DNA of 41,830 nucleotides, taken from assembly GCA_030041495.1 (NCBI GenBank), contig JASHNT010000034.1:1-41830 (forward strand). Direction: 5' to 3'. Source of the stretch: Bryobacteraceae bacterium. Lineage in GTDB: Bacteria > Acidobacteriota > Terriglobia > Bryobacterales > Bryobacteraceae. Under the pieces are notes generated by a model, which saw nothing but the letters and a program-made list of their open reading frames with translations, was not told the DNA's origin and searched no databases. Numbering within the stretch: position 1 is the stretch's first letter; every line of letters starts with the position of its first letter. Below, one piece after another: positions 12,252-34,369 of this stretch. Both the position numbers and the translations under genes were made by a program.

Positions 12252-12276
12252 GATGTGTTCCTAAATCAACGTGCCT

Positions 12277-13620: not shown

Positions 13621-13632
13621 CTTTGAGCACGG

Positions 13633-16047
13633 TTATTGTCCCGCGTGCATCTCCTCCCCGTAGGTCATGCCCTTGGTGTTGAATTGGAACGGTTCGCTGT
13701 TGACCACCGCCATGATGAGCGAGGCGAAGCGATAATTATCATGCCCGGCTTCCCGCACGATGGAGCGGACCATCGGCATGTCGTAGTACTCGACGCCGCG
13801 GCCCAGAGCGTAGGTCAACAGCCGTTCGGTGATGACGCGGGCGAACTGCGGAGAATACCGCAGCAACGCCGCGCGCAGGTCTGAAACGCCGCTCAGCGGA
13901 GTGCCGTCCACCAGGCCGCCCGCCGGATTCACCGGACTGCCTCCATCCAGCGTCCGCCATGCCCCGATTGCGTCGAAATTCTCCAACGTGAACCCGATCG
14001 GATCCATGATCGAATGGCAGCTATGGCACGGCTCATTGGCGCGATGTTGCTCCATCTGCTGCCGCATGGTCGGTTTGGAAGCGCCGTGAACGTCGCTTTC
14101 CGTGGAGTTGATCTTGATCACCACGTTGGGCGGAGGATTCGGCGGACTCACGCCCAGGAACACCTGCATCACCGACTTGCCCCGCTGTACGACCGAGGTC
14201 CTGCTGGCTTGCGAGGAAACCTCCAGGAAGAAGCCCTTGCCCAACAATCCGCGGCGCACATCCAGCTCCTTGGGAAGAGTGACGCGGCGGAAGTTGCTGC
14301 CGTACACGTTCGGAATCCCGTAATGTTTCGCGAGCCGCTCATTCACGAACGTATAATCCGCGTCGATCAGATCGATGGCGCTGCGATTCTCATGCACGAT
14401 CGAGTCGAAGAACAGCTCCGCTTCGCGCTGGAAAGCCTGGCGGAGATTGTCGTCGTAATCCGGGAACGACTGCGTCACGGGAGCCGCGGTCGCCAGCGAC
14501 CGCACGCCCAGCCACTGCCCGAAGAAATTGCTGACGAACTGCTGGGAGCGGGCGTCGGCCAGCATGCGCTTGACTTGAGCCTCCAGCACCGCCGGTTCGT
14601 GCAGCTTGTTCTGGCTGCCGAGATCGATCAACTCGTCGTCCGGCACCGTGCTCCAGAGGAAGAACGAAAGGCGTGAGGCCAGATCCAAATCCGATACGCG
14701 GTACTTCGATCCGGCGGCAGCGGCATCCTCAGGCTCGGCTTCCTTGCGGAAGATAAAATCGGGGTCCAGCAGCACGCGTTCGATGGCAAGCTCGACGCCG
14801 TGATCGAAGTCTTTTTCGTTGCGGCCCTTCTGATAAAACGTCATGAGTTTCTCCACGTCCTCCGGCGTGGAGGGTCTGCGATACGCCCGGCGCGCTAGCG
14901 CGGTCAGCACCTTGGTGGCGCACGCCGGTTCGTCATCCACGCTGGTAGGGCGGCACACGAAGATCCTGGTGTAGCTGGGCGATCCGCTGGCCCCCGCCGC
15001 ATTGTACGGCCCGTCGATGCGGATGTAGCCCACCTGCGGGTAGAAGGAGAATCCGGGAAGGCCGCCCGTCTCGATGGTGCTTCGTAGGAAATGTTTGTCG
15101 AGATCGTTTCCGGGCGCGTAATTCGTGGCCAGGAACGTCACGCCGATTGCGTGCACGCCGGCTTTCACCTGGAAGCGTAGCTCCTGGGTTCCCTGGTGCA
15201 CAGCAGCGCCGCGGCCCACTTCGCGGTCCCAGTCGATCTGCTTGATGAGCTGGGAATCGAGCAACACCTCCAGCTTTTCGCCGCGGATCTCGCCGAAGGC
15301 GTTGTTGTTGTCCATGTTGCCCTTGTTGACGGGCCAGATCTTGATCGCGTACTCGCCGTCGGCTGGGAAATCATGCCGGGCAATGATTCCGCCGCGAGTC
15401 CCGAAGGGCAGCCCGGCGATGTGATAATCCTGCGAAGTATCGTCAGCCACGCGATAAATGGCCTGTTGCGGAGCGGTCACGTCGCCGATCGCCATGCGGC
15501 TGATCTTGCCCGCCGCGGAACGATAGGCCTCGATCAGAGCAGGCGATGAAGTCAGCGTTCCGGCCTGATTGTCGAAGCCGTGCGTGGAATCGTCCGGAGG
15601 CAAAAACTTGGAGGCGTCCACCTCCAGGCCCAGCACGTCGCGAATCACGTTGCTGTATTCGATGCGATTCAGCCGATGCAGACCCGGTGCAGGCAGCCGC
15701 ACGGGCGCGCTTTTGTCGAGCGTCGTCTCCAAGGTCTGAATGAAGGCCTCGTAAGTGCCTGCATCGGGGCGAGGATGGTTCACCGGCGGCATCATGCCAG
15801 CGCGCAGCTTCCGGACTACCTTTTCCCAGATCTCTCCGTGGCCCGCCATGTTGACCGGGTCCAGAGACTCCAGGTCGAGGCCCCCGTTGCGGATCGTCGG
15901 GTTGTGGCAATCGGCGCAGTACTCGCCGATCACTTCGCGCGGGTCAACCGCGGATGCCGCCGGATGCGTCGCAACCGGCGTCTGGCCGCTGAGGATCAGC
16001 ACCATGGCGAGGATCGAAACCAAGGCGAGGGATAGTTTTGCGGTCAT
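13633..16047 (-). CDS. PSCyt-type cytochrome c protein (DUF1587/1595/1592/1588/1585)
   Basis: 804 residues from ATG 16047 with a signal sequence (AKLSLALVSILAMVLILSGQ). The open frame extends upstream to 16332, but that part lacks coding character. Domains in order: a cytochrome c domain with CADCH at 44-48; a DUF1587 segment (LHRLNRIEYSNVIRDVLGLE); a carbohydrate-binding-like middle; a DUF1595 segment (LARRAYRRPSTPEDVEKL); DUF1592 (DLASRLSFFLWSTVPDDELI); DUF1588 with RRGLLGKGFFLEVSSQASRT and a second haem site CHSCH at 674-678; and DUF1585 at the C-terminus (FARVITERLLTYALGRGVEY). Proteins of this architecture are exported; the electron partner and substrate are unknown. It leads the operon PSCyt-DUF1552-ankyrin. 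Confidence 0.9.
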   Translation of the reverse strand: MTAKLSLALVSILAMVLILSGQTPVATHPAASAVDPREVIGEYCADCHNPTIRNGGLDLESLDPVNMAGHGEIWEKVVRKLRAGMMPPVNHPRPDAGTYEAFIQTLETTLDKSAPVRLPAPGLHRLNRIEYSNVIRDVLGLEVDASKFLPPDDSTHGFDNQAGTLTSSPALIEAYRSAAGKISRMAIGDVTAPQQAIYRVADDTSQDYHIAGLPFGTRGGIIARHDFPADGEYAIKIWPVNKGNMDNNNAFGEIRGEKLEVLLDSQLIKQIDWDREVGRGAAVHQGTQELRFQVKAGVHAIGVTFLATNYAPGNDLDKHFLRSTIETGGLPGFSFYPQVGYIRIDGPYNAAGASGSPSYTRIFVCRPTSVDDEPACATKVLTALARRAYRRPSTPEDVEKLMTFYQKGRNEKDFDHGVELAIERVLLDPDFIFRKEAEPEDAAAAGSKYRVSDLDLASRLSFFLWSTVPDDELIDLGSQNKLHEPAVLEAQVKRMLADARSQQFVSNFFGQWLGVRSLATAAPVTQSFPDYDDNLRQAFQREAELFFDSIVHENRSAIDLIDADYTFVNERLAKHYGIPNVYGSNFRRVTLPKELDVRRGLLGKGFFLEVSSQASRTSVVQRGKSVMQVFLGVSPPNPPPNVVIKINSTESDVHGASKPTMRQQMEQHRANEPCHSCHSIMDPIGFTLENFDAIGAWRTLDGGSPVNPAGGLVDGTPLSGVSDLRAALLRYSPQFARVITERLLTYALGRGVEYYDMPMVRSIVREAGHDNYRFASLIMAVVNSEPFQFNTKGMTYGEEMHAGQ

Positions 16048-16255
16048 CGGCGGAAGGAATGCATTTGGAATTCCACGTGTCGCCTGGTGCAAGCTCAACA
16101 AATCGGGTCCTCCCGCGCCGGCCGTGCTGCGTTTTGGCCCAGCAGGGCTGCGCGAAGCTGTGTGAAGACGCGCAGGGCGCCTTGGATTTACAAGGGCTTC
16201 AGTGGTCCGAGTAATGGCGAGCCGCGTGCGAGACGCTGACGGCGTGGAGGTGCGA

Positions 16256-17533
16256 ATGCGCAAAACCTGGTGGGCCCTGGTGATCGCTCCGATCGGGGTT
16301 CTGGTGGCGCTGCGGGGCCGCTCGCAGACCATCGACGAGGCCCTGACGCCCGTCGATCATCCCGCCATCCGATACTATGACGGCGCGCTCAATGACCGTG
16401 TCACCCGATTGATCCGGGATTTAGCCGCCGGGAAACGCAAGTTAGAGCCAAGCGCGAACGGTTTGGGTTACCTCCCCGTGCTACTAGAGGCTCTCGGCGT
16501 GCCCCGGGATTCGCAATCGCTTGTGTTTTCGAAGACCAGCTTCCAGGCCTCCCGCATCTCTCCCAAAAATCCGCGCGCCATCTACTTCAGCGACGATGTA
16601 ACTGTCGGCTATGTGCGCGGCAGCAACTTGCTGGAGGTCGCGGCCTTGGATCCGAAACAGGGGGTAATCTTTTACAGTTTCGACCAGGAGGCCAACCCGC
16701 CGCGTTTCGACCGCCGCGACGTCTGTCTGCAGTGCCACGAAAGCAAAGGTACGCTGGGCATTCCAGGCCTGCTCGTCGCCTCGGTCTACCCGGACGCGGA
16801 CGGCATGCCGGCATTCCGGGGGGCGCAGAACATCACCGACCATCGCACTCCGTTCGAGCAGCGCTACGGCGGGTGGTATGTCACCGGCACGCATGGCGAT
16901 ATGCGCCACCTGGGCAACGCCATCGGGCACGAGCCCGACCATCCGGAGGTGCTGGATAGCCGCGACGCCCTGAACCTGACCAGCTTGGCCCGAAAGTTCG
17001 ATCCCGCGGGTTACCTGAGCGGGCTAAGCGATCTGGTCGCGCTGATGACTTTGGAGCATCAAACCCGCATGACCGATTTGATCATTCGCGTCGGCTGGGA
17101 GGCGCGCATGCTGGAGCATGACGGGCTATCGGACGCGGCCGCAAGAGCCCGTTACGACGCCGATGTCGAGTCGTTGGTTACCTACATGCTATTTGCCGAC
17201 GAAGCGCCTCTCTATGACGATGTCGCCGGAGTTTCGGCGTTCACCGAAACCTTCGCCGCGCGCGGGCCGCGCGACAGCCGGGGCCGTTCCCTCCGCGACT
17301 TCGACCTCCACACGCGCCTGTTCAAGTACCCGCTGAGCTACATGATCTATAGCGACGCTTTCGACGGAATGCCATCGCAGGCTCGCGAGCGCATTTACCA
17401 GAGACTCTACGAGGTTCTTACTGGTAAGGATCAGAGCCCCAAGTTTCAGCGCCTGTCGGCAGCCGGCCGTCGTGCGGCGCTGGAAATCGTCGCGGGAACC
17501 AAATCCGCCCTTCCCGGCTATTGGCGCGATTAG
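16256..17533 (+). CDS. Exported monohaem cytochrome-like protein
   Basis: 425 residues. ATG 16256 has GGAGG at 16246-16250, and the N-terminus (MRKTWWALVIAPIGVLVALR) is a signal or anchor. There is one c-type haem motif, CLQCH, at residues 157-161, in the sentence RDVCLQCHESKGTLGIPGLL. Flanking conserved-looking stretches include VDHPAIRYYDG near the N-terminus, AIYFSDDVTVGYVRGSNLLE, and MRHLGNAIGHEPDHP. I do not recognise a named family. It is divergent from the PSCyt operon, with 208 bp between the starts, so the two may share regulation. A distant Met or His could be the second axial ligand; this cannot be decided by eye. Confidence 0.75.
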   Translation: MRKTWWALVIAPIGVLVALRGRSQTIDEALTPVDHPAIRYYDGALNDRVTRLIRDLAAGKRKLEPSANGLGYLPVLLEALGVPRDSQSLVFSKTSFQASRISPKNPRAIYFSDDVTVGYVRGSNLLEVAALDPKQGVIFYSFDQEANPPRFDRRDVCLQCHESKGTLGIPGLLVASVYPDADGMPAFRGAQNITDHRTPFEQRYGGWYVTGTHGDMRHLGNAIGHEPDHPEVLDSRDALNLTSLARKFDPAGYLSGLSDLVALMTLEHQTRMTDLIIRVGWEARMLEHDGLSDAAARARYDADVESLVTYMLFADEAPLYDDVAGVSAFTETFAARGPRDSRGRSLRDFDLHTRLFKYPLSYMIYSDAFDGMPSQARERIYQRLYEVLTGKDQSPKFQRLSAAGRRAALEIVAGTKSALPGYWRD

Positions 17534-17869: not shown

Positions 17870-19363
17870 TTAGTTACCGACCACCCTTAGTCCAAGCCAG
17901 GGCCAATAGACCGAAACTAAGACCAGGAGCTGGATTGAATCCAGAATGCTCATGCAAATGCCAAGGCGCATCAAGTCCTTGGCGCGGAAGTAGCCGTACG
18001 CATATCCGGCAATCGTTACGGTCGATTGATACGCGAAGATCTTCCCCCCGGAAGAGAACGTCCAGATCATGCCGACCAACAGCGGACTCCAGCCGTTGGT
18101 GTGCGCCATGTTCATCACGGACGGCATCGAGGCGCCCAGCATGGACACTTCACTGCCAAGAAAGATGTGGTAGAGGAAGCCGGTCCAATACAGGACTACG
18201 CTCAGAATGGAAACGTGTCCCGCCAGAGGGCGCATCCAGGCGAACAGGACTTGACTCAGCCGCGCAAGACCGTTTGTGGCTTTCAACACCTGTCCCATGC
18301 TCACCGCCGAACCGACAAAGAAGAACGACAGCAGGTAATTCATCCGTCCCAGATCGCGCGTGCTGATCGCGCCCACCACGGGCGAGATGGCGAGAAGCCC
18401 CGCGCCCAGCCCAATCACGGCAGGCGAGAGGTGGTGCAGGAAATCGGTGGTCCAGAGCGCCATCGCCCCCAGCATCAGAGCCAACGCCTTCCTCTCCGGG
18501 GCCTTCATCGGACCCAAGTTTTGAAGCTCGGCGCTGAGGAAGCTGACACCGCCTCCCGGCAAAGATAGCTGCTCTGCGGGGTAAAGCCACAGCGTCATGC
18601 GCCATGCAAAGAAGACGGTCACGGCCTGTATCGGGAGGAAGGCGACAAACCAACGGCTCCACAGCACATCCACTCCGCCGATGTTCTCCATCACGCCGCG
18701 CGCAGTGATGGCTGCGGCTCCGGCGATGATCGTCTTATCGAAGATGCTGGCTGTGTAAGTGAGGATGAGAAACATGCCTCGGCCGACATTGCTCCCCCGG
18801 CCCATTCCGAAGGCTTCCATTAAACTCAATGCGAGCGGAGCCATGATGGCGACACGCGCTAATCCGGAAGGCACCAGGAATGTCAGAACAAAACTCAGCA
18901 TGATCATTCCCAGCAGTAGGCGCGGATAACTGCTTCCTACACGCGACAGGATCAGATATCCCACGCGTCGCGCGAGCCCTGTGCTGGTCGCCATAATCCC
19001 CAGAAGAATCGCCCCGAGCGAGAACCATGGTGTGTCGCTGACGAAACCACCGAAGGCAGTCTGAATCGGTACCACTCCCAGCGCCCAGAAAAGATAGCAT
19101 CCGACCAGGCCGGCTACGCCATGGTCCATTACCTCGGTGGTCCAGGCGACGATGATGAAAGCGGCGATCGCAAGCGCGTGCTGCGCCTTCGGCTCCACAT
19201 GCAGTGGCGAAACCCAAATGGCAACCGGAAGAGCAAATGCGATCGCACGTGCGCCCACAATTCCAGCCTGCTTAAGCTGGCTCCCGCGTGAAACGGGCTC
19301 GGGCGATCGGCGGACTGCAGCTCCCGGTTGCATTTGCCGGTTAGTGGACGTCCGCTCCCGCAC
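17870..19363 (-). CDS. SLC13 (DASS)-type anion:sodium symporter
   Basis: 497 residues with about 11-12 membrane helices; the region up to residue 40 is soluble and variable. Signature features of the divalent anion:sodium symporter family: IVAWTTEVMDHGVAGLVGCY in the first repeat, WFSLGAILLGIMATSTGLARRV, TFLVPSGLARVAIMAPLAL, and in the second repeat NYLLSFFFVGSAVSMGQVL and LGSEVSMLGASMPSVMN. The canonical SNT-type motif of this family appears modified, so the transported anion (dicarboxylate, sulfate or other) cannot be named. The start may be GTG 19363, overlapping the upstream synthetase gene by 23 nt, or ATG 19333. Overlap with the A-T-TE gene points to co-transcription and an export or uptake role for that locus. 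Confidence 0.78.
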   Translation of the reverse strand: MRERTSTNRQMQPGAAVRRSPEPVSRGSQLKQAGIVGARAIAFALPVAIWVSPLHVEPKAQHALAIAAFIIVAWTTEVMDHGVAGLVGCYLFWALGVVPIQTAFGGFVSDTPWFSLGAILLGIMATSTGLARRVGYLILSRVGSSYPRLLLGMIMLSFVLTFLVPSGLARVAIMAPLALSLMEAFGMGRGSNVGRGMFLILTYTASIFDKTIIAGAAAITARGVMENIGGVDVLWSRWFVAFLPIQAVTVFFAWRMTLWLYPAEQLSLPGGGVSFLSAELQNLGPMKAPERKALALMLGAMALWTTDFLHHLSPAVIGLGAGLLAISPVVGAISTRDLGRMNYLLSFFFVGSAVSMGQVLKATNGLARLSQVLFAWMRPLAGHVSILSVVLYWTGFLYHIFLGSEVSMLGASMPSVMNMAHTNGWSPLLVGMIWTFSSGGKIFAYQSTVTIAGYAYGYFRAKDLMRLGICMSILDSIQLLVLVSVYWPWLGLRVVGN

Positions 19364-22004
19364 GAGCGCTCGCGGCGATGCCGGGCCGCTCTCGTTGGAC
19401 GGAAGCAGCGGCGAAAACCTCTCTCAATTTCTCCGCGAGCAACGCCGCGTTGTCTTCGGTAAAGATTGAAAGAGAATCGGAAGGAAACCATCGGACATCG
19501 AATTGCTTTTTCGTGAACTCCCGCCAGCCGAATCGTGGATCGCTCAAGATGCGCGCGCTTACGGGCGCATTCGCCGCGAGGAAATGCACGATGGAAACAG
19601 GGACAGCTCGCGGAATGTATTCGCGCCGCACCACCGCATTCCAGTGTTTTTCGTCTTCGGGGATTTCGCGCCTTCGCGGCGCCAGGGCGCGATCGGCTTT
19701 CGCGCGAATCCTGCGAGTCGCGAGTTTACGTAACCTCCGAAAGTGCTCCAGAGCGGCGCGGATCCCGCTTTTGCAATCGCCCCGAATCAGCTCGCGAAGC
19801 AACAGGATGCCTTGATGCGCATACTCCCGCCAATGCCGGGCAATCTTCGGATAACCGGGCGCCGGCGCTTCAAAAAAAACCAGGAGCGCGACTTCCTTAC
19901 CCCGTGCGATGAGCTGACGCGCGGTCTCAAGCGCGAAGACCGACGACCGGCAGCAGCCTCCCAGCAGATAGGGCCCATCGGGCCGCGCCGCAAGGATGGA
20001 GGCGGCCGACTGACGGGCAAGTTCCTCGAGCTTCATTAACCGCTTCCCTTGGACGGCCGGCGGAGGGCAAACCGCAAAAAACGGCTGTTCCGGCCCGAGC
20101 TCCCGCGATACGTGCCGGAACTCAAAGGCCTGAATCTCCGTCGTGGGAAAACAAAAAAATGGAATGTTCTTGCCTTCGCTCCGCAACACAATGATCTGCT
20201 CCCCAATGGACGCCGATTCACGCTCGCGGTTCCTGGAGATCGTCCGCGCCAGCATCGCAATCGTCGGGCGCTCCCACAGCTCCGCCTCGCCGAGTTTGGA
20301 CCTGCCGATCTTCAGGCATTCGCTTGCCTGCGCAAGCATGATGGCCGCGGACAGTGAATCGCCTCCCAGCTCGAAAAAATCTTCGTGAATACCGACATTT
20401 TCAAGACCCAGAACGTTCCGCCAAATCTCGATCAGCTTGCCTTCAACCTCGGTCGGAGCGCGCAGCGCCTCTTGCGAACGCCCGTCATTTCGCAGACTTT
20501 TGCTGGCCAAATTCTGAAACTGCTCCGCGAGAGCGGCTCGCTTGGGCTTGCCTGTCGCGGTACAAGGGATCTCCTCGACGAAAACGATGCGCCGTGGGAC
20601 TTTGAAGACCGCCAGACGCTTTGCGGCGAACCAACGAAGGTGGACTTCCTTGACTCGATCGTCCGGGCGCAGCACGACAGCGGCTGCGACGTCTTCACCC
20701 AAAGTGCGGTGCGGAATGCCGAAGGCAGCGGCGGCAGCAACGCAAGGATGACTGGTGAGCACGGATTCTACTTCCTGCGGGAGAATCTTTTTGCCCCCGC
20801 GGTTGATCATTTCCTTCCGCCGGCCCACGATGAACAAATATCCTTCGTTATCCAAGCGGCCGAGATCCCCGGTTCGAAACCAGCCATCGCGAAAGGCCTG
20901 CTGGTTCGCTTCCGGGTCGTCCAGATAACCCGCCATGAGCGTGGATCCCCTCACCACGATCTCTCCTTCGCTTCCCACAGAGAGGGGCCGCCCGGCGTCA
21001 TCCATCACCGCGATTTCCGCGCCGCTGCTTGTCCCCACGGAACCAGGCTTACGTCGCGAAGGAGTATTGCGCGCAACGCTCGGCATCTCCGTCAAGCCGT
21101 AACCATCCAGAACGGGCACCCCCAAAAGCTCCTCCAGAGAACGAACGATATCGGGGTGCGGAGCAGCGCCAGCGGAGCGTATGAAGCGCAAAGGAGCCCT
21201 GCTGAACACTTGAGGATGCTTTTGCGCCAGCGTGAGAATCGCGCGCTGGAGCGTGGGATCGGCCGAGAACCAGGTAGGGCGAAATTCTTCGAGCCAGGAG
21301 AGAAACTGGTCTGCATCGAACGCCGCCGGACAGAACGCGCTGGCGCCCCGAACCAGTTGGGTGAATATCGCGCTAATGCCGTGGGCGTAGCAAAGCGGCA
21401 TCAGACTCAGGAAACGGTCGGATGCCGTCAATTCCAAAGCATCGCTGTCCTGGGTGGCCGCCACGCGCACACACGCTCGGCTGCGCGGAACCAGCTTGGG
21501 CGAGCCAGAGGTCGAAGAGGTGTGGAACAGGAGAACGGCATCGGTCTGCCGCGCATGCGGTTGCTCGCTTGCGCCCTCGGTTCGCGCTAGCTCAAAAACG
21601 CCCGCCGGGGCGTCCATCGATGGCCGAATGCGGATGACCCTCATGCCCAGCTCCCCCGCCACATCGGCCACAGGCGCACTCCCGCCTTCCGTGCATACCA
21701 GGGATGAAACGCGCACGCGCGACAAGTACCGGCGGCATTCATCCGGGCGGAGTCCCAGGTCGATGGGGAAACAGGCCCATCGCGTCATGATCGACAAAAC
21801 CGTGGTCACGAATTCCGGCCCGTTTGGAAGCGCGAGGCCAACAACCTCTCCAACACGGATGCCTGCTTCGAGAAGAGCGTCGCTCGTCAAGTTTATATGG
21901 CTTAAGAGCGAGGAGTAACTAAGCGGGGCGCGCTTTGGCGCGGCAAGAGCCGTAGCCGACGGGGCATCTTGTGCCCGTCTCTCAAGATCGAGGGGTATGT
22001 TCAT
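19341..22004 (-). CDS. A-T-TE one-module synthetase, TE catalytic residues degenerate
   Basis: 887 residues in three domains. Adenylation domain about 1-500: HTSSTSGSPK (161-170), DGYGLTE (300-306), GWFRTGDLG (374-382), GRRKEMINRGGKKI (394-407), TATGKPKR (482-489) with the catalytic Lys. The A4 region reads LMPLCYAHG, closer to acyl/aryl-CoA ligases than to amino-acid A domains, so a carboxylic acid without an amino group is the likely substrate (inference). Carrier domain with FFELGGDSLS, phosphopantetheine Ser550. TE domain from about 600: GGCCRSS puts Cys685 at the nucleophile position, Glu712 replaces the usual Asp in FFEAPAPGYPK, and the His position aligned with its paralogue is Ser844 (WFPSDSLSIF). 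The TE is therefore probably weak or non-hydrolytic. Shares 3' overlap with the transporter gene. Confidence 0.88.
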   Translation of the reverse strand: MNIPLDLERRAQDAPSATALAAPKRAPLSYSSLLSHINLTSDALLEAGIRVGEVVGLALPNGPEFVTTVLSIMTRWACFPIDLGLRPDECRRYLSRVRVSSLVCTEGGSAPVADVAGELGMRVIRIRPSMDAPAGVFELARTEGASEQPHARQTDAVLLFHTSSTSGSPKLVPRSRACVRVAATQDSDALELTASDRFLSLMPLCYAHGISAIFTQLVRGASAFCPAAFDADQFLSWLEEFRPTWFSADPTLQRAILTLAQKHPQVFSRAPLRFIRSAGAAPHPDIVRSLEELLGVPVLDGYGLTEMPSVARNTPSRRKPGSVGTSSGAEIAVMDDAGRPLSVGSEGEIVVRGSTLMAGYLDDPEANQQAFRDGWFRTGDLGRLDNEGYLFIVGRRKEMINRGGKKILPQEVESVLTSHPCVAAAAAFGIPHRTLGEDVAAAVVLRPDDRVKEVHLRWFAAKRLAVFKVPRRIVFVEEIPCTATGKPKRAALAEQFQNLASKSLRNDGRSQEALRAPTEVEGKLIEIWRNVLGLENVGIHEDFFELGGDSLSAAIMLAQASECLKIGRSKLGEAELWERPTIAMLARTISRNRERESASIGEQIIVLRSEGKNIPFFCFPTTEIQAFEFRHVSRELGPEQPFFAVCPPPAVQGKRLMKLEELARQSAASILAARPDGPYLLGGCCRSSVFALETARQLIARGKEVALLVFFEAPAPGYPKIARHWREYAHQGILLLRELIRGDCKSGIRAALEHFRRLRKLATRRIRAKADRALAPRRREIPEDEKHWNAVVRREYIPRAVPVSIVHFLAANAPVSARILSDPRFGWREFTKKQFDVRWFPSDSLSIFTEDNAALLAEKLREVFAAASVQRERPGIAASARAGADVH

Positions 22005-22046
22005 GCCTGAAGGAATAGGAATCTTTCTAGCAAGTGTAAGCTAAAT

Positions 22047-22084
22047 AACATACTGGGCGTGAGCGGTACGGCAAAGCGTATACT
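22047..22084. promoter_or_regulatory. Divergent promoter region of the A-T-TE locus
   Basis: On the minus strand, TTGCCG (22074-22069) and TATGTT (22052-22047) are 16 bp apart and could start the transcript of the A-T-TE gene beginning at 22004. On the plus strand, TATACT at 22079-22084 lies 28 nt before the glycosyltransferase ATG at 22113, with no clear -35. The 108-bp gap thus probably holds both promoters, partly overlapping. Confidence 0.4.
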
Positions 22085-22112
22085 GACCGCTAATCTTCAA
22101 GCGTGATCCGGG

Positions 22113-23270
22113 ATGGAAACTCTGCGTTTGTTGGCGATCGTTGAACCGAGGGCACTGGTTGTAGGCCCTAGCAAAACCATATTCGATTTCGCATGTTTAG
22201 CGCGCCACAGCCGCTTTGGCCGGACGGTGGAGACCACATTCGCCCAATTTCACGAACCCGGCGACCATGCCGCCTTCAGTGATGCAAGCCAGGCCGCGGG
22301 CATCCGCATTGTGGATATTTCCAAGTGGGATCGTTGGAATCGAAAGGTCGTTGCCGAGTTGCGGGATCTTGTCCGGGAAGTGCGGCCGCACATCATCCAA
22401 ACACACGCTCTCTTGTCCCACTTCGTGGTCCGGTTCTCTGGACTTCACCGTCAGGTCCCTTGGGTCGCCTTCCATCACGGCTACACGTGGCCCGATCTCC
22501 GCACCCGTCTGTACAATCAAGCGGATCGCTGGTCGCTACGCGCTGCCGCTCGGGTGGTCACCTCGTGCGACGCATTTCGCGAACAGCTTCGCGAACGCGG
22601 GATCGCGGGAAATCGAATCGCCGTTGTGCATAACGCCATCGATCCAGAATGGGGATCCGGTGTGCGATGCGGGGCCGGCGAACTGCGGAAGCGCCTTGGC
22701 GTTCTTCCAGAGGAGAAGGTGATTCTCTCCGTTGGCCGCCTTTCCCGCGAAAAGGATCATGTCACCGCCGTGGAAGCCTTCGCGCGACTACACCACGCGG
22801 GCGCTAGAGTTCGTATGTTCATCGTCGGGGATGGTCCCGAGCGGAAACGCATTGAAGCGCGCATCGGCTCTCTTGGCCTGCGCGGCCACATCATACTCCT
22901 CGGGAGGACGAGTTCCGAGCCATACTACGGTGTCGCGGATGCATTCGTCCTACCGTCACGCAGCGAAGGTTGGTCCCTTTGCTTACTCGAGGCCATGGCG
23001 ACGCAGGTGCCTATCGTGGCCACCCGCGTGGGAGGCGTTGCCGAAATGGTCACGCATGGAGAAAGCGCGCTCCTGGTCGCCCCGAAAGATAGTGCGGCTC
23101 TTGCGTCCGCCTTACTGGAACTCTTACGGAATCCGGATCTCGGCCGTTCCCTCACGGCCAAGGCGAAGCGCCTGGTTTCAAACCAGTGTACTATCGAAGC
23201 TCGTACGCGGCAGATGATCGACCTCTACTGCGATCTCCTGCACGAAAGCCGCGCTTCGCGTCTTTCGTAA
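22113..23270 (+). CDS. GT4-type glycosyltransferase
   Basis: 385 residues, the size of family 4 glycosyltransferases with two Rossmann domains (GT-B fold). N-terminal domain: RPHIIQTHALLSHFVVRFSG and WVAFHHGYTWPDLRTR. C-terminal donor domain: EKVILSVGRLSREKDHVTAV, then FIVGDGPERKRIEARIGSLG, and the nucleotide-sugar E-x7-E motif in SRSEGWSLCLLEAMATQVPI. It would transfer a sugar from an NDP-sugar to an acceptor at the cytoplasmic face. It lies between the two A-T-TE genes and ends exactly where the methyltransferase gene (opposite strand) ends. The acceptor is unknown; decoration of the A-T-TE product, or an unrelated glycan, are both possible. Confidence 0.87.
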   Translation: METLRLLAIVEPRALVVGPSKTIFDFACLARHSRFGRTVETTFAQFHEPGDHAAFSDASQAAGIRIVDISKWDRWNRKVVAELRDLVREVRPHIIQTHALLSHFVVRFSGLHRQVPWVAFHHGYTWPDLRTRLYNQADRWSLRAAARVVTSCDAFREQLRERGIAGNRIAVVHNAIDPEWGSGVRCGAGELRKRLGVLPEEKVILSVGRLSREKDHVTAVEAFARLHHAGARVRMFIVGDGPERKRIEARIGSLGLRGHIILLGRTSSEPYYGVADAFVLPSRSEGWSLCLLEAMATQVPIVATRVGGVAEMVTHGESALLVAPKDSAALASALLELLRNPDLGRSLTAKAKRLVSNQCTIEARTRQMIDLYCDLLHESRASRLS

Positions 23271-24233
23271 TCACTTGGTCGCAAGAATCGCGTCTACAAG
23301 GCAACCCGTCCTCTTGAACCTTACATCGGAGAATCCAACCCCAAGTAGAAGACCGCGGTATTCGGAAAAGGTTCGCTCGCGCCCGCTGGTCGCCACCAGC
23401 ATGTTCAGGGAACTCATGTGCACATGGGCGGGCCCGCTCCGGTCATCGTTCAATACGCGTTCGGCCACCAATAAGGCCCCGAGTTCAGGCAGAGCATCAT
23501 ATACGCGCTTTAACAAGAGGCGGCAACCACTCTCATCCTTATTGTGCAAAACCTTGCCAAGCGCATACAGGTCAGCCGCAGGTAGAGCATCGGTCAGTAA
23601 ATCGCCCGGATAAAGAGTTGCTTTGCCGAAAGTGTATTCGCGGCTGATCGGAATCACATGCGGGAGTTCAAAAACGCCGATTTTCATATGTGGATAGCGC
23701 TCGGCTATGGCCAAAGCCAAGTGCCCGGTGGCCCCTCCCAAATCTACGCAACTCCGAAAACCCGACAAGTCGAACGCTGCGGCGACCGCCGGAGAGCTGA
23801 GCATGCCGAGTCCATGCATTCCGGCATTAAAGTCGCGATTGGTGTCCTGGCGGGCGCGAGCACCCTTCAGCCGACGGTAACCGCGGCGAAGCGTCCCTCG
23901 AATGCTCAATGGATTCTCGCGCTGTGTTCCCTCGATCACCGCTTCATCAAGTTCTCCCCACCTCGGGTAAAGCGATGCTCCGGCGAACTTCACAAACCCG
24001 GCGAGAGACAGCGGACTCGAACCGCGGAGATACTTATCGCTCAGCGTTGTGTTGACGTATTCCGTGTCACGCCTTTCGAGTAGCCCAAGAGAAGCGCATG
24101 CTTCGAGGAGGCGTTCCAACTCCGCGGCCTGCGGGCGCTCTCCTTCGAAGATTCCCAGACGCACCGCGGCAACCAAGGTCTGAAAGCGCTGAAATCCTTC
24201 AATTAGTTCGACGATTGCTTCGGCGTCCGACAC
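23271..24233 (-). CDS. Class I SAM-dependent O-methyltransferase (acetylserotonin/CrtF-type)
   Basis: 320 residues. An N-terminal dimerisation helix bundle (residues 1-90, QRFQTLVAAVRLGIFEGERP) precedes the SAM-binding Rossmann domain, as in small-molecule O-methyltransferases of the Methyltransf_2 group. Motif I is SCVDLGGATGHLALAIAERYP, an acidic residue after strand 2 lies in IGVFELPHV, and ADLYALGKVLHNKDE matches the region with the catalytic-base His in that family (the usual H-D-W is H-N-K here). ERVLNDDRSGPAHVHMSSLNML corresponds to the later conserved segment. It starts 7 nt after the second A-T-TE gene on the same strand, so it is almost certainly co-transcribed and acts on that pathway. 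Confidence 0.85.
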   Translation of the reverse strand: MSDAEAIVELIEGFQRFQTLVAAVRLGIFEGERPQAAELERLLEACASLGLLERRDTEYVNTTLSDKYLRGSSPLSLAGFVKFAGASLYPRWGELDEAVIEGTQRENPLSIRGTLRRGYRRLKGARARQDTNRDFNAGMHGLGMLSSPAVAAAFDLSGFRSCVDLGGATGHLALAIAERYPHMKIGVFELPHVIPISREYTFGKATLYPGDLLTDALPAADLYALGKVLHNKDESGCRLLLKRVYDALPELGALLVAERVLNDDRSGPAHVHMSSLNMLVATSGRERTFSEYRGLLLGVGFSDVRFKRTGCLVDAILATK

Positions 24234-24240
24234 TTTGCCT

Positions 24241-26916
24241 CTACAGTTTTCCCGCCCCGGCTTGATTAACGTCAGGCTTTTGGGGGGTCGCGGAACTCGC
24301 CAGAACCTGTCCCGTCAAGCACGCATGGATAGAGTCTGCAAGCCCGGGGGCGTTGTCCAAGCTTAATAGGGAATCGTGATCGCCAGCGACTTCGCGCACC
24401 TCGATTCCGGCTCGGGCAACATCCTGCCATCCATAGCGCGGATCGTCGAGCACCTCGCTGACCGGATGGTCCGCTGCAAGAAAGTGCACGATGGGAACGC
24501 AACAATCCCGAAGCTCGTACTGCCAAAGCGCAACCGCGGCGCGAGTGTTCAATGGATTCTCATTCAGCCCTCTCCCCAATGACGTGCGCTCGGTACGGCG
24601 TCTCCAGCGGCCGACGATGCGCCGCTGAAGCAAGATTCCGAGGGTGTATGTCTGGCTCCGAGCCCTTTTCCAGTCCAGGGTCCGGACGATTCCAATCACT
24701 TGGGTCAGGTATTTGGACCAATTGGCGGCGAGTTTGGGATAACCCGGCGTCACCGCGTCAAAAAACAGGAGACGAAGAACCGTTTCACCTTCCGCGCGCA
24801 ACTGCCGCGCAGCCTCGAAGGCCACCACGGCGCCGAAGCAATGACCCGCGAGGAGATACGGCCCATGCGCTTGCGCTTTGCGAATCGCTTCAATCGAACT
24901 TCGCGCTAAATCCTCCACCCGGCGGGCGGTTTCGTAATTCGTGGGAATCGATGCGGTGACCACGCACAAGGAAAGCTGCGCCCCTAAACTCGCCGCCAAA
25001 GGCCGCAAGTAATACGGGTCCACCGGGCCGCCATCGCGACCTCGCCAGCCGGGAAAGCAGAAGAGCGGAACCGCGTTCATCGATTCGCTGGAGCCAACGG
25101 CGTGGGCCGCGTGAAAAACCAGAATACCGTCCCCGTCGTTTTCGCGCGCATCTCGCGTTGCCTGGCATTCCGCAACGATTCGCGCCAGCGTTTCTATGGT
25201 GGGTTCATCGAGAAAGTCGGCCCGGGCCATCACCTGTCCATCCGTATCGAATTCCCGGTCGACCTCCGCTAGCATACGCGCGCAACTCAGCGAATCGCCG
25301 CCCAGCTCTATGAAATCGCCGTCGAGTGAGATTGTCTTCATTCCAAGGATCTCGGCCCAGATTCGCATGATCCGTTGCTCCGTCGCGGTGCGCGGGCGCT
25401 CAATTCTACGTTCGCGCGCGGCGTCTGCGATATATCTGTCGGCAAGCAGTGTGCGTTGCGGTTTACCGGCTGCGGTGCGCGGAATCGAATCGACGAAGAC
25501 GATAGGCCGAGGAACTTTGAAAGCCGCCAGCCGGCTCGCTGTGTAATGCCGCAAATCGGCTGCCGTCAGGTGAGCGCCTTCCCGAAGCACAATGGCGGCG
25601 GCGACGTTTTCTCCAAGCGTGCGATGCGGTACGCCGAAGGCCGCTGCATCTTGGACGGAAGGATGACTCAGGAGAACCCGGTCGATCTCCGAAGGCTGGA
25701 TCTTTTCATTGCCCCGGCTGATGATCTCTTTGATCCGGCCGGTGATGAACAGGAAGCCTTCGTCATCTAAGTAGCCGAGATCGCCGCTGTGGAACCAGCC
25801 ATCACGGAAGGCGCTCCGGGTAGCTTCTTCATCGTCCAGATACCCCGAGACCACGCCGGCGCCGCGAAGCAGGATTTCACCTTGCCGATTCGCCGGAAGC
25901 GCGTTTCCGGAGGCGTCTGCCACGGCGATTGTAGGCCCAAAGCTGATCCCCGCCGAACCCGGCTTGGATGCGGCAATCGTGTTTCGCGTTGCCCCCGCGC
26001 ACTCCGTCGAGCCGTATCCCACAAGCACCGGCGCCCGCATTACCTCTTGAGCCGCTTGGCACAACGCGGGCTCCGGCGTAGCCCCGCCAACCAAAATAAA
26101 TCGCGGAGCGGCGCCGGCGAAGACTCTCCGCGCCGCCGGGCCAGCCGTGACAACCGCATGTAGTGCCGAGGCGCCGGTCGCCATCCAGGTCGGGTGGAAC
26201 TCCTCCCACCACGACGGAAGCTGCGACACGTCGAATCCCGGGGTACAAACGGCACTACCGCCATAGTGCAACTGCGACAGAACGCGCCCGAAGCCGAACA
26301 CATGAAAAAGGGGCATGCCGGTCAGGAGACGATCTTCCGGGCCGAGTTGGAACGCTCTCCCGTCACACGCAATATGCGCCTGGATGCCGTCCTCGCTCAG
26401 GGGAACCAGTTTGGGATCCCCAGTGGTGGAAGAGCTCAAGAACACTAGTGGTGCTTCCGTGTGACGCGATGGCTCGGTCGAGGTGCGCGGCGACATCGTT
26501 TCAACGGCGAGGCCATCCTCTCCGCCCCCTCCGGCGAGCCTCGCGCGAAGCGCCAATAATCCCAACTCACGAGCCGCGGCCAGCGCAGGTGATTCGCCGC
26601 TGCCCGTGAGCACCACCGCGCCCGCGCGTAAACGCTTCAGGTAGCGAAAATATTCGTCGAACGTCAACGAAGGGTCCAGCGGGACGCACGTCGAGCCGCT
26701 GGATAGCGCAAGACAAGTGACCATGGAAGCGAGGCCGGTCTGCATCAAGACACAAACAGGTCCGGCTGGTAGGCCAGCGTGCCGAAACTCATCTTGCCCC
26801 TGCCGTACCAACGACAGAAGAGTTGCGTAAGTCAGCGGCGCTTTGCCCGGAGCCAGCAGGGCAGGCTTCTCCGGTTCTGTCAGCGCCCACTGGGCCAGTT
26901 GCAGAATTCTATCCAT
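24241..26916 (-). CDS. A-T-TE one-module synthetase with complete Cys-type TE triad
   Basis: 891 residues, a paralogue of the protein at 19341-22004. Adenylation domain about 1-500: SSSTTGDPKL (161-170), MPLFHVFG (201-208, acyl-ligase-like A4), VGYGSTE (299-305), DGWFHSGDLG (372-381), TGRIKEIISRG (392-402), and TAAGKPQR (481-488). Carrier domain: FIELGGDSLS with Ser542. TE domain: PYLLAGHCFGAVVAFEAARQ with Cys693 as nucleophile, LLFFDAVTPGYPK with Asp720, and VREVAGDHDSLLS with His847. All three catalytic positions are filled, with Cys in place of Ser. Closest architectural comparison is the stand-alone A-T-TE furanone/quinone synthetases (for example RalA, AtrA), but the product is not known. 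It is followed within 7 nt by the methyltransferase. Confidence 0.88.
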   Translation of the reverse strand: MDRILQLAQWALTEPEKPALLAPGKAPLTYATLLSLVRQGQDEFRHAGLPAGPVCVLMQTGLASMVTCLALSSGSTCVPLDPSLTFDEYFRYLKRLRAGAVVLTGSGESPALAAARELGLLALRARLAGGGGEDGLAVETMSPRTSTEPSRHTEAPLVFLSSSTTGDPKLVPLSEDGIQAHIACDGRAFQLGPEDRLLTGMPLFHVFGFGRVLSQLHYGGSAVCTPGFDVSQLPSWWEEFHPTWMATGASALHAVVTAGPAARRVFAGAAPRFILVGGATPEPALCQAAQEVMRAPVLVGYGSTECAGATRNTIAASKPGSAGISFGPTIAVADASGNALPANRQGEILLRGAGVVSGYLDDEEATRSAFRDGWFHSGDLGYLDDEGFLFITGRIKEIISRGNEKIQPSEIDRVLLSHPSVQDAAAFGVPHRTLGENVAAAIVLREGAHLTAADLRHYTASRLAAFKVPRPIVFVDSIPRTAAGKPQRTLLADRYIADAARERRIERPRTATEQRIMRIWAEILGMKTISLDGDFIELGGDSLSCARMLAEVDREFDTDGQVMARADFLDEPTIETLARIVAECQATRDARENDGDGILVFHAAHAVGSSESMNAVPLFCFPGWRGRDGGPVDPYYLRPLAASLGAQLSLCVVTASIPTNYETARRVEDLARSSIEAIRKAQAHGPYLLAGHCFGAVVAFEAARQLRAEGETVLRLLFFDAVTPGYPKLAANWSKYLTQVIGIVRTLDWKRARSQTYTLGILLQRRIVGRWRRRTERTSLGRGLNENPLNTRAAVALWQYELRDCCVPIVHFLAADHPVSEVLDDPRYGWQDVARAGIEVREVAGDHDSLLSLDNAPGLADSIHACLTGQVLASSATPQKPDVNQAGAGKL

Positions 26917-27324: not shown

Positions 27325-28026
27325 TCAGACGCTCAGGTGCTCGCGGACCACTTCGTCGGTCAGCTCGCCGATGGCGCCGGACGCTACGCGGCGGCCTTTG
27401 TCAAGAATGCAGAATTCGCTAGCCACGCGCCGGGCAAACGGCAGCTTCTGCTCAACCAGAAGCACGGTGAGCCGTTCCTCTTGATTCAGCCGCAACACAA
27501 TGTCTCCGATCTCATGAACAATGTTGGGTTGAATGCCTTCGGTGGGCTCATCCAGAATCAGTAGTTTCGGCTCTAGAACCAGTGCGCGGCCGATGGCAAG
27601 CTGTTGCTGCTGGCCCCCGGAAAGATCGCCGCCGCGGCGCTTCAGCATCTTCTTCAATACGGGGAACAGACGGAAGATCCGATCGGGAATCGTTCGCGGT
27701 CCGTGCGGGCGAATGCCGATGCCGACGCGCAGATTCTCCTCTACCGTCAAATGCGAAAAAATTTCGCGCCCCTGCGGCACGTAGCCGATCCCCAGCCGCG
27801 CTCTCCGCTCGGCGGGGCATTTCAACAGGTCCGTGCCTTCGAAGACCACGCTTCCGGAGCGGACCGGCTCCAGGCCCATGACGCATTTGAGCAAGGTGGT
27901 CTTGCCCATGCCGTTGCGGCCCATCACGCACATGCGCGACCCGGCTGGAACTGCCAGGTCCACATCCCACAGCGTGTGGCTGCCGCCGTAAAACTGATTC
28001 AGGCCTCGAATCGCCAGAACGTTCAT
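27325..28026 (-). CDS. urtE: Urea ABC transporter ATP-binding protein UrtE
   Basis: 233 residues, the short LivF-like ATPase. Walker A GRNGMGKTTLLKCVMG, Q-loop region, signature LSGGQQQQLAIGRAL, and Walker B LLILDEPTEGIQPNIV. The phrase GYVPQGREIFSHLTVEENL is characteristic of UrtE/LivF proteins. It energises urea uptake with UrtD. ATG 28026 overlaps the stop of urtD as ATGA. It is the last gene of porin-urtABCDE. Distinction from branched-chain amino-acid LivF rests on the adjacent urease genes and the UrtA/UrtB features. Confidence 0.92.
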   Translation of the reverse strand: MNVLAIRGLNQFYGGSHTLWDVDLAVPAGSRMCVMGRNGMGKTTLLKCVMGLEPVRSGSVVFEGTDLLKCPAERRARLGIGYVPQGREIFSHLTVEENLRVGIGIRPHGPRTIPDRIFRLFPVLKKMLKRRGGDLSGGQQQQLAIGRALVLEPKLLILDEPTEGIQPNIVHEIGDIVLRLNQEERLTVLLVEQKLPFARRVASEFCILDKGRRVASGAIGELTDEVVREHLSV

Positions 28027-28769
28027 ACGCCCAGATACACCTCTTTCACGCGAGCATCGTTCTGCACCTTTTCCATGTCGCCTTCGGCCAGCACGCTGCC
28101 TTCATGCAGCACCACGACGCGCCGCGCGATGGAGCGCACGAAGGACATGTCATGCTCAACCACGACGATAGAATGCTCGCCCTCCAGCGACAACAGCAAC
28201 TCCGAGGTGCGCTCGATCTCATGCGGGGTCATCCCGGCCACGGGTTCGTCGACCAAGAGCAGCTCGGGATTCTGCATCAGCAGCATCCCGATTTCCAGCC
28301 ACTGCTTCTGCCCGTGCGAAAGGATTTTCGCGAGCGAGGCTTGATGATCGCCGAGGCCGGTGATGTCCAGCACCTCATCGATGCGTTTGCGCTGCTGGGG
28401 CGTAATCCGTGCGCGAAGTGTATTGAAGAACGACCGGTTGCCCGCCGAGGCCAGCTCCAGGTTCTCGAAGACCGTTAGTTCCTCAAACACGGTCGGCTTC
28501 TGAAACTTCCGCCCGATTCCCACAGCTACGATTTCCGGCTCGGTGAGCTTCAACAGATCGATGGCGTCGCCGAAGAAGGCGCTACCGGTATCGGCGCGAG
28601 TTTTTCCGGTGATCACGTCCATCATGGTGGTTTTGCCGGCGCCATTGGGGCCGATGATGCACAACAGCTCGCCCGGATCCACGTATAGGTTGAGTTTATT
28701 GAGTGCCTTAAAGCCGTCGAAGCTGACGGTCAGGTCCTCCAGATAAAGACGCTTGCCGCGGGTGCTCAT
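28023..28769 (-). CDS. urtD: Urea ABC transporter ATP-binding protein UrtD
   Basis: 248 residues from ATG 28769, which overlaps the urtC stop as ATGA; in-frame sequence further upstream (to 29027) is inside urtC. Walker A GPNGAGKTTMMDVITGKTR, IGRKFQKPTVFEELTVFENLE, signature ILSHGQKQWLEIGMLL, Walker B LLVDEPVAGMTPHE. SHGQKQWLEIGMLL is the diagnostic form of the signature in UrtD, as opposed to SGGQ in LivG. Works with UrtE as the nucleotide-binding pair. Confidence 0.93.
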   Translation of the reverse strand: MSTRGKRLYLEDLTVSFDGFKALNKLNLYVDPGELLCIIGPNGAGKTTMMDVITGKTRADTGSAFFGDAIDLLKLTEPEIVAVGIGRKFQKPTVFEELTVFENLELASAGNRSFFNTLRARITPQQRKRIDEVLDITGLGDHQASLAKILSHGQKQWLEIGMLLMQNPELLLVDEPVAGMTPHEIERTSELLLSLEGEHSIVVVEHDMSFVRSIARRVVVLHEGSVLAEGDMEKVQNDARVKEVYLGV

Positions 28770-29911
28770 TTCTTGACGATCACGCCTTCCTCGCCTTCCA
28801 CGTGCGCGGGCTCGGGCGAATCCGGAAGGGCCCTGCGCTTCCGGTGCAATTCCCAAGCGCCGATGATGCCGTCGGGCAGGAAGCGCGTCACCAGCACGAA
28901 CAGGAGACCCAGGGCGTACAGCCAGATCTCGGGGAGCGCGCCGGTGAAGTAGGTTTTGGCGTAGTTGACCAGCACCGCGCCGGCAACGGCTCCGTAGAGC
29001 GTACCGCGTCCGCCGACCGCGACCCAAATGACGGCTTCAATCGAACCGATGGGATCGAATTCACTGGGATTGATGATTCCGATTTGCGGGACGTACAATG
29101 ATCCGGCGATGCCGGCCAGCACACAGGAGAACACGAAAAGCCACAGCTTATAGGATTCCACGGAATAGCCGAGAAAGCGGGTGCGGCTTTCGGCGTCGCG
29201 AATCGCGCGGATCACACGCCCGGCGCGGGATTCGACGATCCACCGGCAGACCAGGTAGGCCGCGGCGAGAATCACCGCGGTGATCACCAGCAGCGAGACG
29301 TGGGTGCGGTCCGAATGCAGATCGAAGCCCAGGATGTCCTTGAAATCGGTGAAGCCGTTGTTGCCGCCGAAGCCCATGTCGTTGCGGAAGAAGGCCAGCA
29401 TCAGGGCATAGGTGAGCGCCTGCGTGATGATGGAAAAATAGACGCCGGTAACCCGGGAGCGGAACGCGAACCAGCCGAAAACCAGCCCCAGCAATCCGGG
29501 AACGACCATCACCATGAGAGCAGCGAAGGCGAGATGGTTAAAGCCATGCCAGAACCACGGCAGGCTCTTCCAATTCAAAAACACCATGAAATCCGGAAGG
29601 ATGGGGTCGCCGTAGACGCCGCGCGGGCCAATCTCGCGCATTAGGTACATACCCATCGCGTAGCCGCCCAGCGCGAAGAAAGCTCCGTGCCCCAGACTCA
29701 AGATACCGCAATAACCCCAGATGAGATCGATGGAGAGAGCCAATAACCCATAGCAGAGATACTTGCCGATGAGGCCGATTCCGTAGTCGGAGAGATGAAG
29801 CGCGGAGCCGGCGGGGACGGCTAGGTTTAGAATCGGTACGAAGATCGCCACGGCGGCAAGGATGCCGAGAAACCAGCGGCCGCCGCGATCGCGCTGCAAA
29901 AGGCCCGGCAC
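28766..29911 (-). CDS. urtC: Urea ABC transporter permease UrtC
   Basis: 381 residues with about 9-10 membrane helices. Diagnostic stretch: LIWGYCGILSLGHGAFFALGGYAMGMYLMRE, a long insertion loop (VYGDPILPDFMVFLNWKSLP) and WVAVGGRGTLYGAVAGAVLVN near the C-terminus. The start is GTG 29911, which overlaps the urtB stop by one base (TAGTG). It forms the translocation channel with UrtB. The C-terminal tail after the last helix is charged and ends EEGVIVKK. Confidence 0.93.
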   Translation of the reverse strand: MPGLLQRDRGGRWFLGILAAVAIFVPILNLAVPAGSALHLSDYGIGLIGKYLCYGLLALSIDLIWGYCGILSLGHGAFFALGGYAMGMYLMREIGPRGVYGDPILPDFMVFLNWKSLPWFWHGFNHLAFAALMVMVVPGLLGLVFGWFAFRSRVTGVYFSIITQALTYALMLAFFRNDMGFGGNNGFTDFKDILGFDLHSDRTHVSLLVITAVILAAAYLVCRWIVESRAGRVIRAIRDAESRTRFLGYSVESYKLWLFVFSCVLAGIAGSLYVPQIGIINPSEFDPIGSIEAVIWVAVGGRGTLYGAVAGAVLVNYAKTYFTGALPEIWLYALGLLFVLVTRFLPDGIIGAWELHRKRRALPDSPEPAHVEGEEGVIVKK

Positions 29912-32846: not shown

Positions 32847-32885
32847 AGATAAGCTCCTTCCGTCTGAGGTTGAGAACGCATTACG

Positions 32886-33956: not shown

Positions 33957-33974
33957 GAAAATAGAATCCTCTCT

Positions 33975-34011
33975 GGGCACACTATTGCCCGGCCGCGAGT
34001 GTTCCTCACGG
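33975..34011 (-). promoter_or_regulatory. Two adjacent hairpins in the porin mRNA leader
   Basis: In RNA sense (minus strand), CCGTGAG / CTCGCGG (34011-34005 with 33999-33993, loop 5 nt, one G-U pair) is followed by GGGCA / TGCCC (33990-33986... on plus: GGGCA 33975-33979, TGCCC 33986-33990, loop 6 nt). ACACT of the first hairpin (34002-33998) can pair instead with AGTGT in the loop of the second (33983-33979), giving a possible pseudoknot or switch just upstream of the ribosome-binding site. Confidence 0.45.
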
Positions 34012-34369
34012 AAAAAGTTAAATTGAGCAGCGCTTAAATACGCGAATCCGCACAAACAGGCGGAGCAGCATTCCAGGGGAAGGCAGTTGAGACCGCGACT
34101 CTAAGTTTTCCGGGAGCGGGAATGGCTCAACCCGGGGCCGTTCGCTGGTCCCGTCCGGCGGCTCCGATCAGAGCTGAAGCCGATCCGGAACAGGTGCTTG
34201 CCGCTCGAATAGGCGGCGTACATCAACCCTGGAAAAAGGCACCAAGGTCTCATGCCGGAATTGCCCAACGGTTGAAACCGCTAGGCTTGTCTAAACTTGG
34301 ACAAGGCTGCTTGCGTAGACGGGGCGCACACAGCTACGACGGCAAGAGACTGAATCTCTTTAGGAAAGA

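Follow-up and report, generated by a model that had tools for sequence, protein, structure and literature searches.

Two A-T-TE enzymes in a genome-specific locus of a Bryobacteraceae bacterium, and the frequent absence of the canonical histidine from related cysteine-type thioesterase domains

The pacidamycin protein PacP has the domain order A-T-TE0 (adenylation, carrier, thioesterase) and is described as having no typical thioesterase (TE) triad; its aminoacyl group moves to another carrier by transthiolation (PMC8748450). Shuttling of aminoacyl groups between carriers is also described for CmaE (PMC8748450, PMC7966384), SyrC, and CysB (PMC7966384). A Cys nucleophile has been described for the TE domains of the nonribosomal peptide synthetases (NRPS) AB3403 (PMC11298585), ObiF, and SulM (PMC11298585, PMC6668435). 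The fungal quinone synthetases, which have the domain order A-T-TE, are described with a ten-residue code based on GrsA (PMC10316625). Here, we report on a stretch of 41,830 nucleotides (the window) of contig JASHNT010000034.1 from a Bryobacteraceae bacterium. Five open reading frames between positions 17870 and 26916 code for two A-T-TE enzymes (enzymes 1 and 2), an O-methyltransferase (OMT), a glycosyltransferase (GT), and an SLC13-type transporter (Table 1). All five frames are open, and Pfam agrees with the gene assignments given in a preliminary description of the sequence: AMP-binding, AMP-binding_C, PP-binding, and Thioesterase are found above the curated cut-offs in both large proteins, Methyltransf_2 in the OMT, Glycos_transf_1 in the GT, and Na_sulph_symp (SLC13/DASS) in the transporter.

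Both enzymes have the domain order A-T-TE with no condensation domain, and both keep the A10 lysine and the carrier serine according to the alignment. The preliminary description considered them to be of the same architecture. This is correct for the domain order, but the enzymes are not equivalent because the TE active site of enzyme 1 is degenerate. The aligned TE nucleophile is a Cys in both. Enzyme 2 carries the full triad Cys693-Asp720-His847 (motif AGHCFGA). In enzyme 1 (motif GGCCRSS), only Cys685 is retained, with Glu712 and Ser844 replacing the Asp and the His.

A Cys is found at the nucleophile position in 31 of 33 aligned TE domains. Leaving out the two Ser-type domains (L123, L029), both of them end TEs in multimodular proteins, gives a set of 31. 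Only three of the 249 well-occupied columns of this alignment are invariant (a Gly, the nucleophile Cys, and a Trp), and the canonical His is absent from 15 of the sequences. A larger set of 68 TEs consists of 67 domains which cover nearly the whole model (shorter ones were dropped) and EntF; many further TE matches lie outside this set, and many Ser-types come from long NRPS frames. Asp and His are kept in all 27 Ser-type TEs of this set. Among the 41 Cys-type TEs, the His is kept in 17 and absent from 24, and 12 of those 24 also have no Asp. The 24 sequences do not represent 24 events, as near-identical pairs were counted apart (e.g., L130/L131, L013/L136, L140/L231, L030/L241). Parsimony with penalised regain places seven His losses on the tree, and with midpoint as well as EntF rooting each of them falls on a branch leading to Cys; one of the seven sits on the branch of a Ser to Cys change. 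When branch lengths are taken into account, the chance of all seven falling on Cys branches is P about 0.03, which is suggestive but not strong. The inferred ancestral state depends on the rooting (Cys with midpoint rooting, Ser when EntF is the outgroup), and FastTree support within the TE trees is often low.

In two groups of TEs (L014, L012, L013, L136; and L015, L138), a His is found in the loop behind strand beta-7 in six of six sequences, versus none of 16 sequences which keep the canonical His. This column is taken from the alignment of 31 TEs and is gapped in the larger alignment, and L238 fits by offset only. The loop His might take over the role of the canonical one. In the 68-TE tree, one loss is common to L015, L138, L255, L263, L264, and L265, of which the last four have no loop His. 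The TE of enzyme 1 has none either.

AB3403 (4zxh) is the top sequence match in the PDB for the TE of enzyme 2 and the third one for that of enzyme 1, following two EntF entries. The structure models are weak (mean pLDDT 64.9 for the T-TE part of enzyme 1 and 60.2 for enzyme 2), with blocks around the central strands reaching pLDDT values of 86-95 in the enzyme 1 model. A fold search with the T-TE model of enzyme 1 retrieved NRPS TE domains, with AB3403 at the top (probability 1.00, with a TM-score of only about 0.45).

We read the A-T-TE family as putative acyl-loading units in which the Cys-type TE would often transfer the acyl group rather than hydrolyse it. It is possible, albeit doubtful, that the TE-derived domain of the Acidobacteriota A-T-TE family is a Cys acyl-transfer station which does without the canonical His, and that this reflects a recurrent conversion from release to transfer. 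Part of this reading, and held with the same reserve, is that the His has gone missing in about seven lineages, each of them of the Cys-type, and that enzyme 1 is the most reduced form, left with the Cys alone. By analogy, PacP, CmaE, SyrC, and CysB may serve as precedents for the proposed transfer. Among the open-licence papers listed in literature searches, none deals, going by titles and abstract openings, with this A-T-TE family or with repeated loss of the His from Cys-type TEs, and no paper that combines ralfuranone with TE terms was found there.

The A domains had been described as being of the acyl/aryl-ligase type and not specific for amino acids. The tree bears this out. The A4 regions (LMPLCYAHG, MPLFHVFG) are as quoted in that description, and neither enzyme has the amino acid pocket Asp found in EntF and three NRPS modules (S-F-D). 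The best curated match of both A domains is the FadD7 acyl-CoA ligase model, where they score 344 and 303 bits (cut-off 650), and their best solved relatives are oxalate-CoA ligases (E-values 2.7e-87 and 1.4e-76). A tree of 67 A domains with its root on the NRPS side places both in a clade with relatives from other genera, AAE3, and Pcs60 (support 0.891). EntF, NRPS modules, EntE, MenE, CaiC, and FadD are outside, and there is no grouping with amino acid-activating domains. Support is uneven within the clade, with a value of only 0.355 where the oxalate ligases join their nearest subclade. Because the A domain of enzyme 1 pairs with that of L011 from genome G090 (0.998) and that of enzyme 2 with L010 from genome G129 (0.942), the two look like old paralogues and not like a fresh tandem copy.

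AAE3 and Pcs60 share the residues PLFHVHG, RFIRSCS, and LEAYAMTEA-x-H, which we take to bind oxalate. These are changed in both window enzymes (PLCYAHG and PLFHVFG; RFIRSAG and RFILVGG; LDGYGLTEMP and LVGYGSTECA). Of 45 A domains of the family, 22 keep both FH(I/V)HG and the TEA-x-H histidine by our own count, and the 23 without the full pattern include the window enzymes with their nearest relatives. Activation of an amino acid was rejected in view of the position in the tree together with the missing Asp, and oxalate was rejected as the likely substrate of the window enzymes in view of the altered residues. Since the oxalate-ligase pocket is altered and the A domains group apart from those for amino acids, the substrate would be a carboxylic acid that is probably neither oxalate nor an amino acid.

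We tentatively propose, with low confidence in the reading as a whole, that the locus is a genome-specific and probably acquired one for acid modification, in which an aromatic or phenolic acid is loaded and enzyme 1 holds the acyl group. Each A domain would activate an acid, for which an aromatic or phenolic carboxylic acid is the most likely candidate, and load it onto its own carrier domain, a step that we infer from the intact domains. In enzyme 2, the acyl group would pass to Cys693 of the intact Cys-Asp-His TE and then be hydrolysed or handed on. In enzyme 1, it would pass to Cys685. As the usual general base is missing from this TE, enzyme 1 should hydrolyse poorly and might hold the acyl group for a good acceptor from outside. 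The OMT would methylate a phenolic hydroxyl group, and the DASS protein would move the acid. Among solved structures, the OMT is closest to ASMT. Kinship to BshA, its nearest solved relative (121 bits against a BshA cut-off of 274), is a hint that the GT might glycosylate a hydroxy-acid, and the GT is a possible rather than a certain member of the locus.

The genes next to relatives give weak hints of an aromatic acid. The five closest DASS relatives (55-61% identity) adjoin a LigXa-type Rieske oxygenase (5 of the 12 DASS loci). Four of these five also adjoin a Zn-dehydrogenase, and three (3 of the 12 loci) a class II aldolase for which 3,4-dihydroxyphthalate decarboxylase is the best NCBIfam match. 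L011, the nearest relative of enzyme 1, adjoins a major facilitator superfamily (MFS) protein of the aromatic-acid/H+ symport type. The A-T-TE gene of Stutzerimonas stutzeri TS44 (L028:9833-14573) overlaps a gene with AP_endonuc_2 and HPPD-like domains, an architecture known from 3-dehydroshikimate dehydratases.

A number of points weigh against the proposal. The association between Cys and His loss reaches only the P value given above, in a sample which counts near-identical pairs apart and leaves out many TE matches. The triad loss of enzyme 1 is seen in one sequence, and L011 has an intact triad. The aldolase scores 87 bits against a curated cut-off of 200 and the MFS protein 334 bits against 418.6. 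In the other seven DASS loci, the available flank, short in some cases, contains none of the Rieske, Zn-dehydrogenase, or aldolase genes, and the sole LigXa-type match in the window genome sits on another contig. The Stutzerimonas relative is near carboxylase and bicarbonate-transport genes. In genomes G102, G234, and G235, an isopropylmalate-dehydrogenase-like gene and a fusion of isochorismatase and aldehyde dehydrogenase come after the A-T-TE gene, and this combination suits aliphatic acids.

This three-gene unit also speaks for the alternative that both enzymes act on small aliphatic di-, keto-, or hydroxy-acids, with the DASS protein as a dicarboxylate carrier and the OMT and GT as bystanders, which we regard as rather unlikely. 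It would agree with oxalate-CoA ligases being the nearest solved relatives of the A domains, with the AAE3/Pcs60 pattern kept in nearly half of the family A domains, and with the transporter, whose nearest solved relatives are dicarboxylate carriers. The transporter is assigned at the superfamily level only (PF00939 is matched, while the score of 128.8 bits for the DASS subfamily model TIGR00785 is below its cut-off of 198.6). However, both window enzymes belong to the A domains without that pattern, and the closest DASS relatives sit with the Rieske oxygenase and other genes of the ring-breakdown type.

The distribution of the genes was analyzed in genomes of the same order; the searches scored a small number of candidates per genome (6 for enzyme 2, 3 for enzyme 1, and 6-10 for TE, DASS, and GT), and gene calls in relatives were mechanical. 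The order has many relatives with an A domain, A-T, or A-T-TE (58 of 150 genomes with enzyme 2 as query, E<=1e-60). With enzyme 1 as query, relatives were found in 20 of 257 genomes (E<=1e-130). OMT homologues occur in 139 (E<=1e-40) and GT homologues in 60 (E<=1e-65) of the 257 genomes; the transporter is rare (10 genomes including that of the window, E<=1e-60). The complete set of five genes was found in the window genome only. No homologue of the OMT, GT, or transporter is present near any of 33 A-T(-TE) loci (tblastn, E<=1e-10, flanks of 0 to about 12 kb). Among the 12 other DASS loci in the 257 genomes, none has an intact A-T-TE beside the DASS gene, while one has a decayed A-domain remnant. 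A link between OMT and A-T-TE in relatives was rejected, as A-T-TE is absent from all 15 OMT loci examined; in 10 of these, a gene named Hsp70-like by eye is near the OMT. A class I methyltransferase is near A-T-TE genes in 4 of the 33 loci (L117, L118, L121, L215) and near one DASS gene (L300). The idea of a conserved five-gene pathway unit is thus rejected, because the neighbourhood is absent from the flanks covered in relatives while OMT and GT are common as single genes. Overall, the earlier interpretation is partly supported: the observation and the carboxylic acid reading hold, and the conserved-cluster reading fails.

Both enzymes, the OMT, and the GT have a GC content at third codon positions (GC3) of 0.607-0.679, compared to 0.717 for the transporter and 0.744-0.781 for five genes in the flanks. 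Two genomes from the same genus, G028 and G072, have conserved the left flanking genes without the five genes beside them, and the 9-10 kb to the right of those flanking genes contain neither the five genes nor the transport operon found in the window. The left block consists of four genes (window 10524-17533), the two middle ones being DUF1592/DUF1552-like by eye. We take the locus to have been assembled within this lineage or, probably, acquired.

It might also be that there is no pathway at all, that unrelated genes came together by chance, and that enzyme 1 is becoming a pseudogene with its TE simply dying. We judge this unlikely, though with some substance: the set occurs in a single genome, the lower GC3 of four genes is as expected for acquired DNA, the TE has degenerated in enzyme 1 alone with relatives intact, and genome G090 shows that such loci do decay. 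In G090 (L301:7166-9068), a decayed A domain (43% identity to enzyme 1) directly precedes a transporter remnant (47%). The same remnant, though decayed, indicates that the order of enzyme and transporter is not unique to the window, and this recurrence argues against chance. Furthermore, enzyme 1 is a full frame of 887 codons with the A-domain motifs that were checked, the carrier Ser, and the TE Cys, and whole clades of relatives share the His loss with the Cys kept. The idea from the preliminary description, that these are synthetases which dimerise keto acids like the bacterial furanone and fungal quinone enzymes, with methyl and sugar tailoring, is very unlikely. It has in its favour the A-T-TE order and the description of TE domains of that kind as condensing two aromatic keto acids (PMC9047271), but the A domains are of the acyl-CoA-ligase/oxalate-ligase type and apart from those of NRPS, enzyme 1 has no TE triad, and the tailoring set is not common to relatives.

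Table 1. Features of the locus in contig JASHNT010000034.1 (window positions), and loci of the three-gene A-T-TE unit in other genomes
Feature	Position	Strand	Basis
A-T-TE enzyme 2, 891 aa; TE Cys693/Asp720/His847	24241..26916	-	Pfam, alignments, motif positions
Cys693 codon, aligned nucleophile of enzyme 2 (LAGHCFGA)	24838..24840	-	alignment
O-methyltransferase (OMT), 320 aa, 7 bases behind enzyme 2; closest solved relative ASMT 4a6d	23271..24233	-	
GT4 glycosyltransferase (GT), 385 aa; closest solved relative BshA 5d00	22113..23270	+	
Divergent spacer between GT and enzyme 1, 108 bases	22005..22112	.	from coordinates
A-T-TE enzyme 1, 887 aa; A10 Lys and carrier Ser; TE Cys685, Glu712 for Asp, Ser844 for His	19341..22004	-	
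Cys685 codon, aligned nucleophile of enzyme 1 (LLGGCCRSS, second Cys)	19950..19952	-	alignment
Ser844 codon of enzyme 1, at the catalytic-His position of enzyme 2	19473..19475	-	alignment
SLC13/DASS-type transporter, 497 aa from GTG, start uncertain	17870..19363	-	Pfam
Three-gene A-T-TE units L108, L212, and L213 in G102, G235, and G234 (G234 and G235 from the same genus)	L108: 5462-11083		

The arrangement suggests two pairs of genes on the minus strand (one made up of enzyme 2 and the OMT, the other of enzyme 1 and the transporter), each of which may be co-transcribed, with the GT on the opposite strand. The transporter gene had been described as overlapping that of enzyme 1. The overlap of 23 bases exists only if the GTG start is used, and this start is uncertain because the alignments of relatives begin at residue 15-44 (intact matches) or 2-50; the transporter gene is directly behind that of enzyme 1 whichever start holds. 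To the right of the locus (window 27325-34055) is an ABC transport operon which by eye resembles those for urea or branched-chain amino acids. The ACPS phosphopantetheinyl transferase family has one match in the window genome.

This genome has a third A-T-TE on contig C19 (L002:391-5450), near a TauD-type dioxygenase and an MFS gene for which the best match, below the cut-off, is a D-galactonate transporter model. A TauD-type dioxygenase is also found near the A-T-TE of a Paracoccaceae plasmid (L155:6571-10847), an enzyme which ends in TPR repeats. The plasmid search further gave L153 (874 aa), in which the profile match does not extend beyond the first part of the TE, and L154, which has an A-T stretch. 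A protein of 835 residues with A and carrier matches (L001:7271-9778, on contig C34 of the window genome) by eye resembles a ligase, carrier, and acyltransferase in one. Two such genes per locus also occur elsewhere, as two A-T-TE genes in tandem in G132 and as A-T plus A-T-TE in G052. In genome G102 (L114:7153-10744), a PhyH-type protein adjoins an A-T-TE; its best NCBIfam match is a chlorinating-enzyme model, below the cut-off. A contig scan, from which 80 loci were kept, gave mostly A-domain relatives, with a full A-T-TE by profile only in L028 and L030; L029 has several A-T genes and a Ser-type TE.

What is new here, and worth pursuing, is the TE pattern. The release domain sets the fate of a carrier-bound intermediate, and a fixed Cys with the rest of the triad repeatedly missing would provide a natural series for the change from hydrolase to acyl transferase. 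Genome-mining tools which label such genes plainly as "thioesterase" would then mispredict release. The question is directly testable, as single-module enzymes of about 890 residues should be expressible.

Compared to known systems, the closest solved or curated relatives of the A domains are the oxalate-CoA ligases (AAE3, 5ie0; 6qjz; Pcs60, 8aff), which are in the same clade, and FadD7-type ligases. Unlike the oxalate-CoA ligases, the window A domains are fused to a carrier and a TE, and the shared pocket residues are altered. The NRPS-like keto-acid synthetases (RalA, EchA, and the fungal quinone synthetases) have the same domain order, but, going by their descriptions, the window A domains are of another class, and the TE of enzyme 1 has no Asp and no His. 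The analogy to furanone and quinone enzymes is weakened, as the window enzymes do not have NRPS-type A domains, while a GrsA-based code is described for the fungal quinone synthetases. ObiF and SulM are described as keeping Cys-Asp-His (PMC11298585, PMC6668435), in contrast to enzyme 1, which has neither Asp nor His. PacP, again by its description, handles an aminoacyl group, whereas the window enzymes keep the TE Cys. CmaE, SyrC, and CysB have a similar fold and a Cys nucleophile. The Cys at the nucleophile position, as in CmaE-like acyl transfer, is found in both window TEs in the alignment; transfer from carrier to carrier is itself putative. CmaE, SyrC, and CysB are separate proteins, while in the window enzymes the TE domain is fused to its own loading module.

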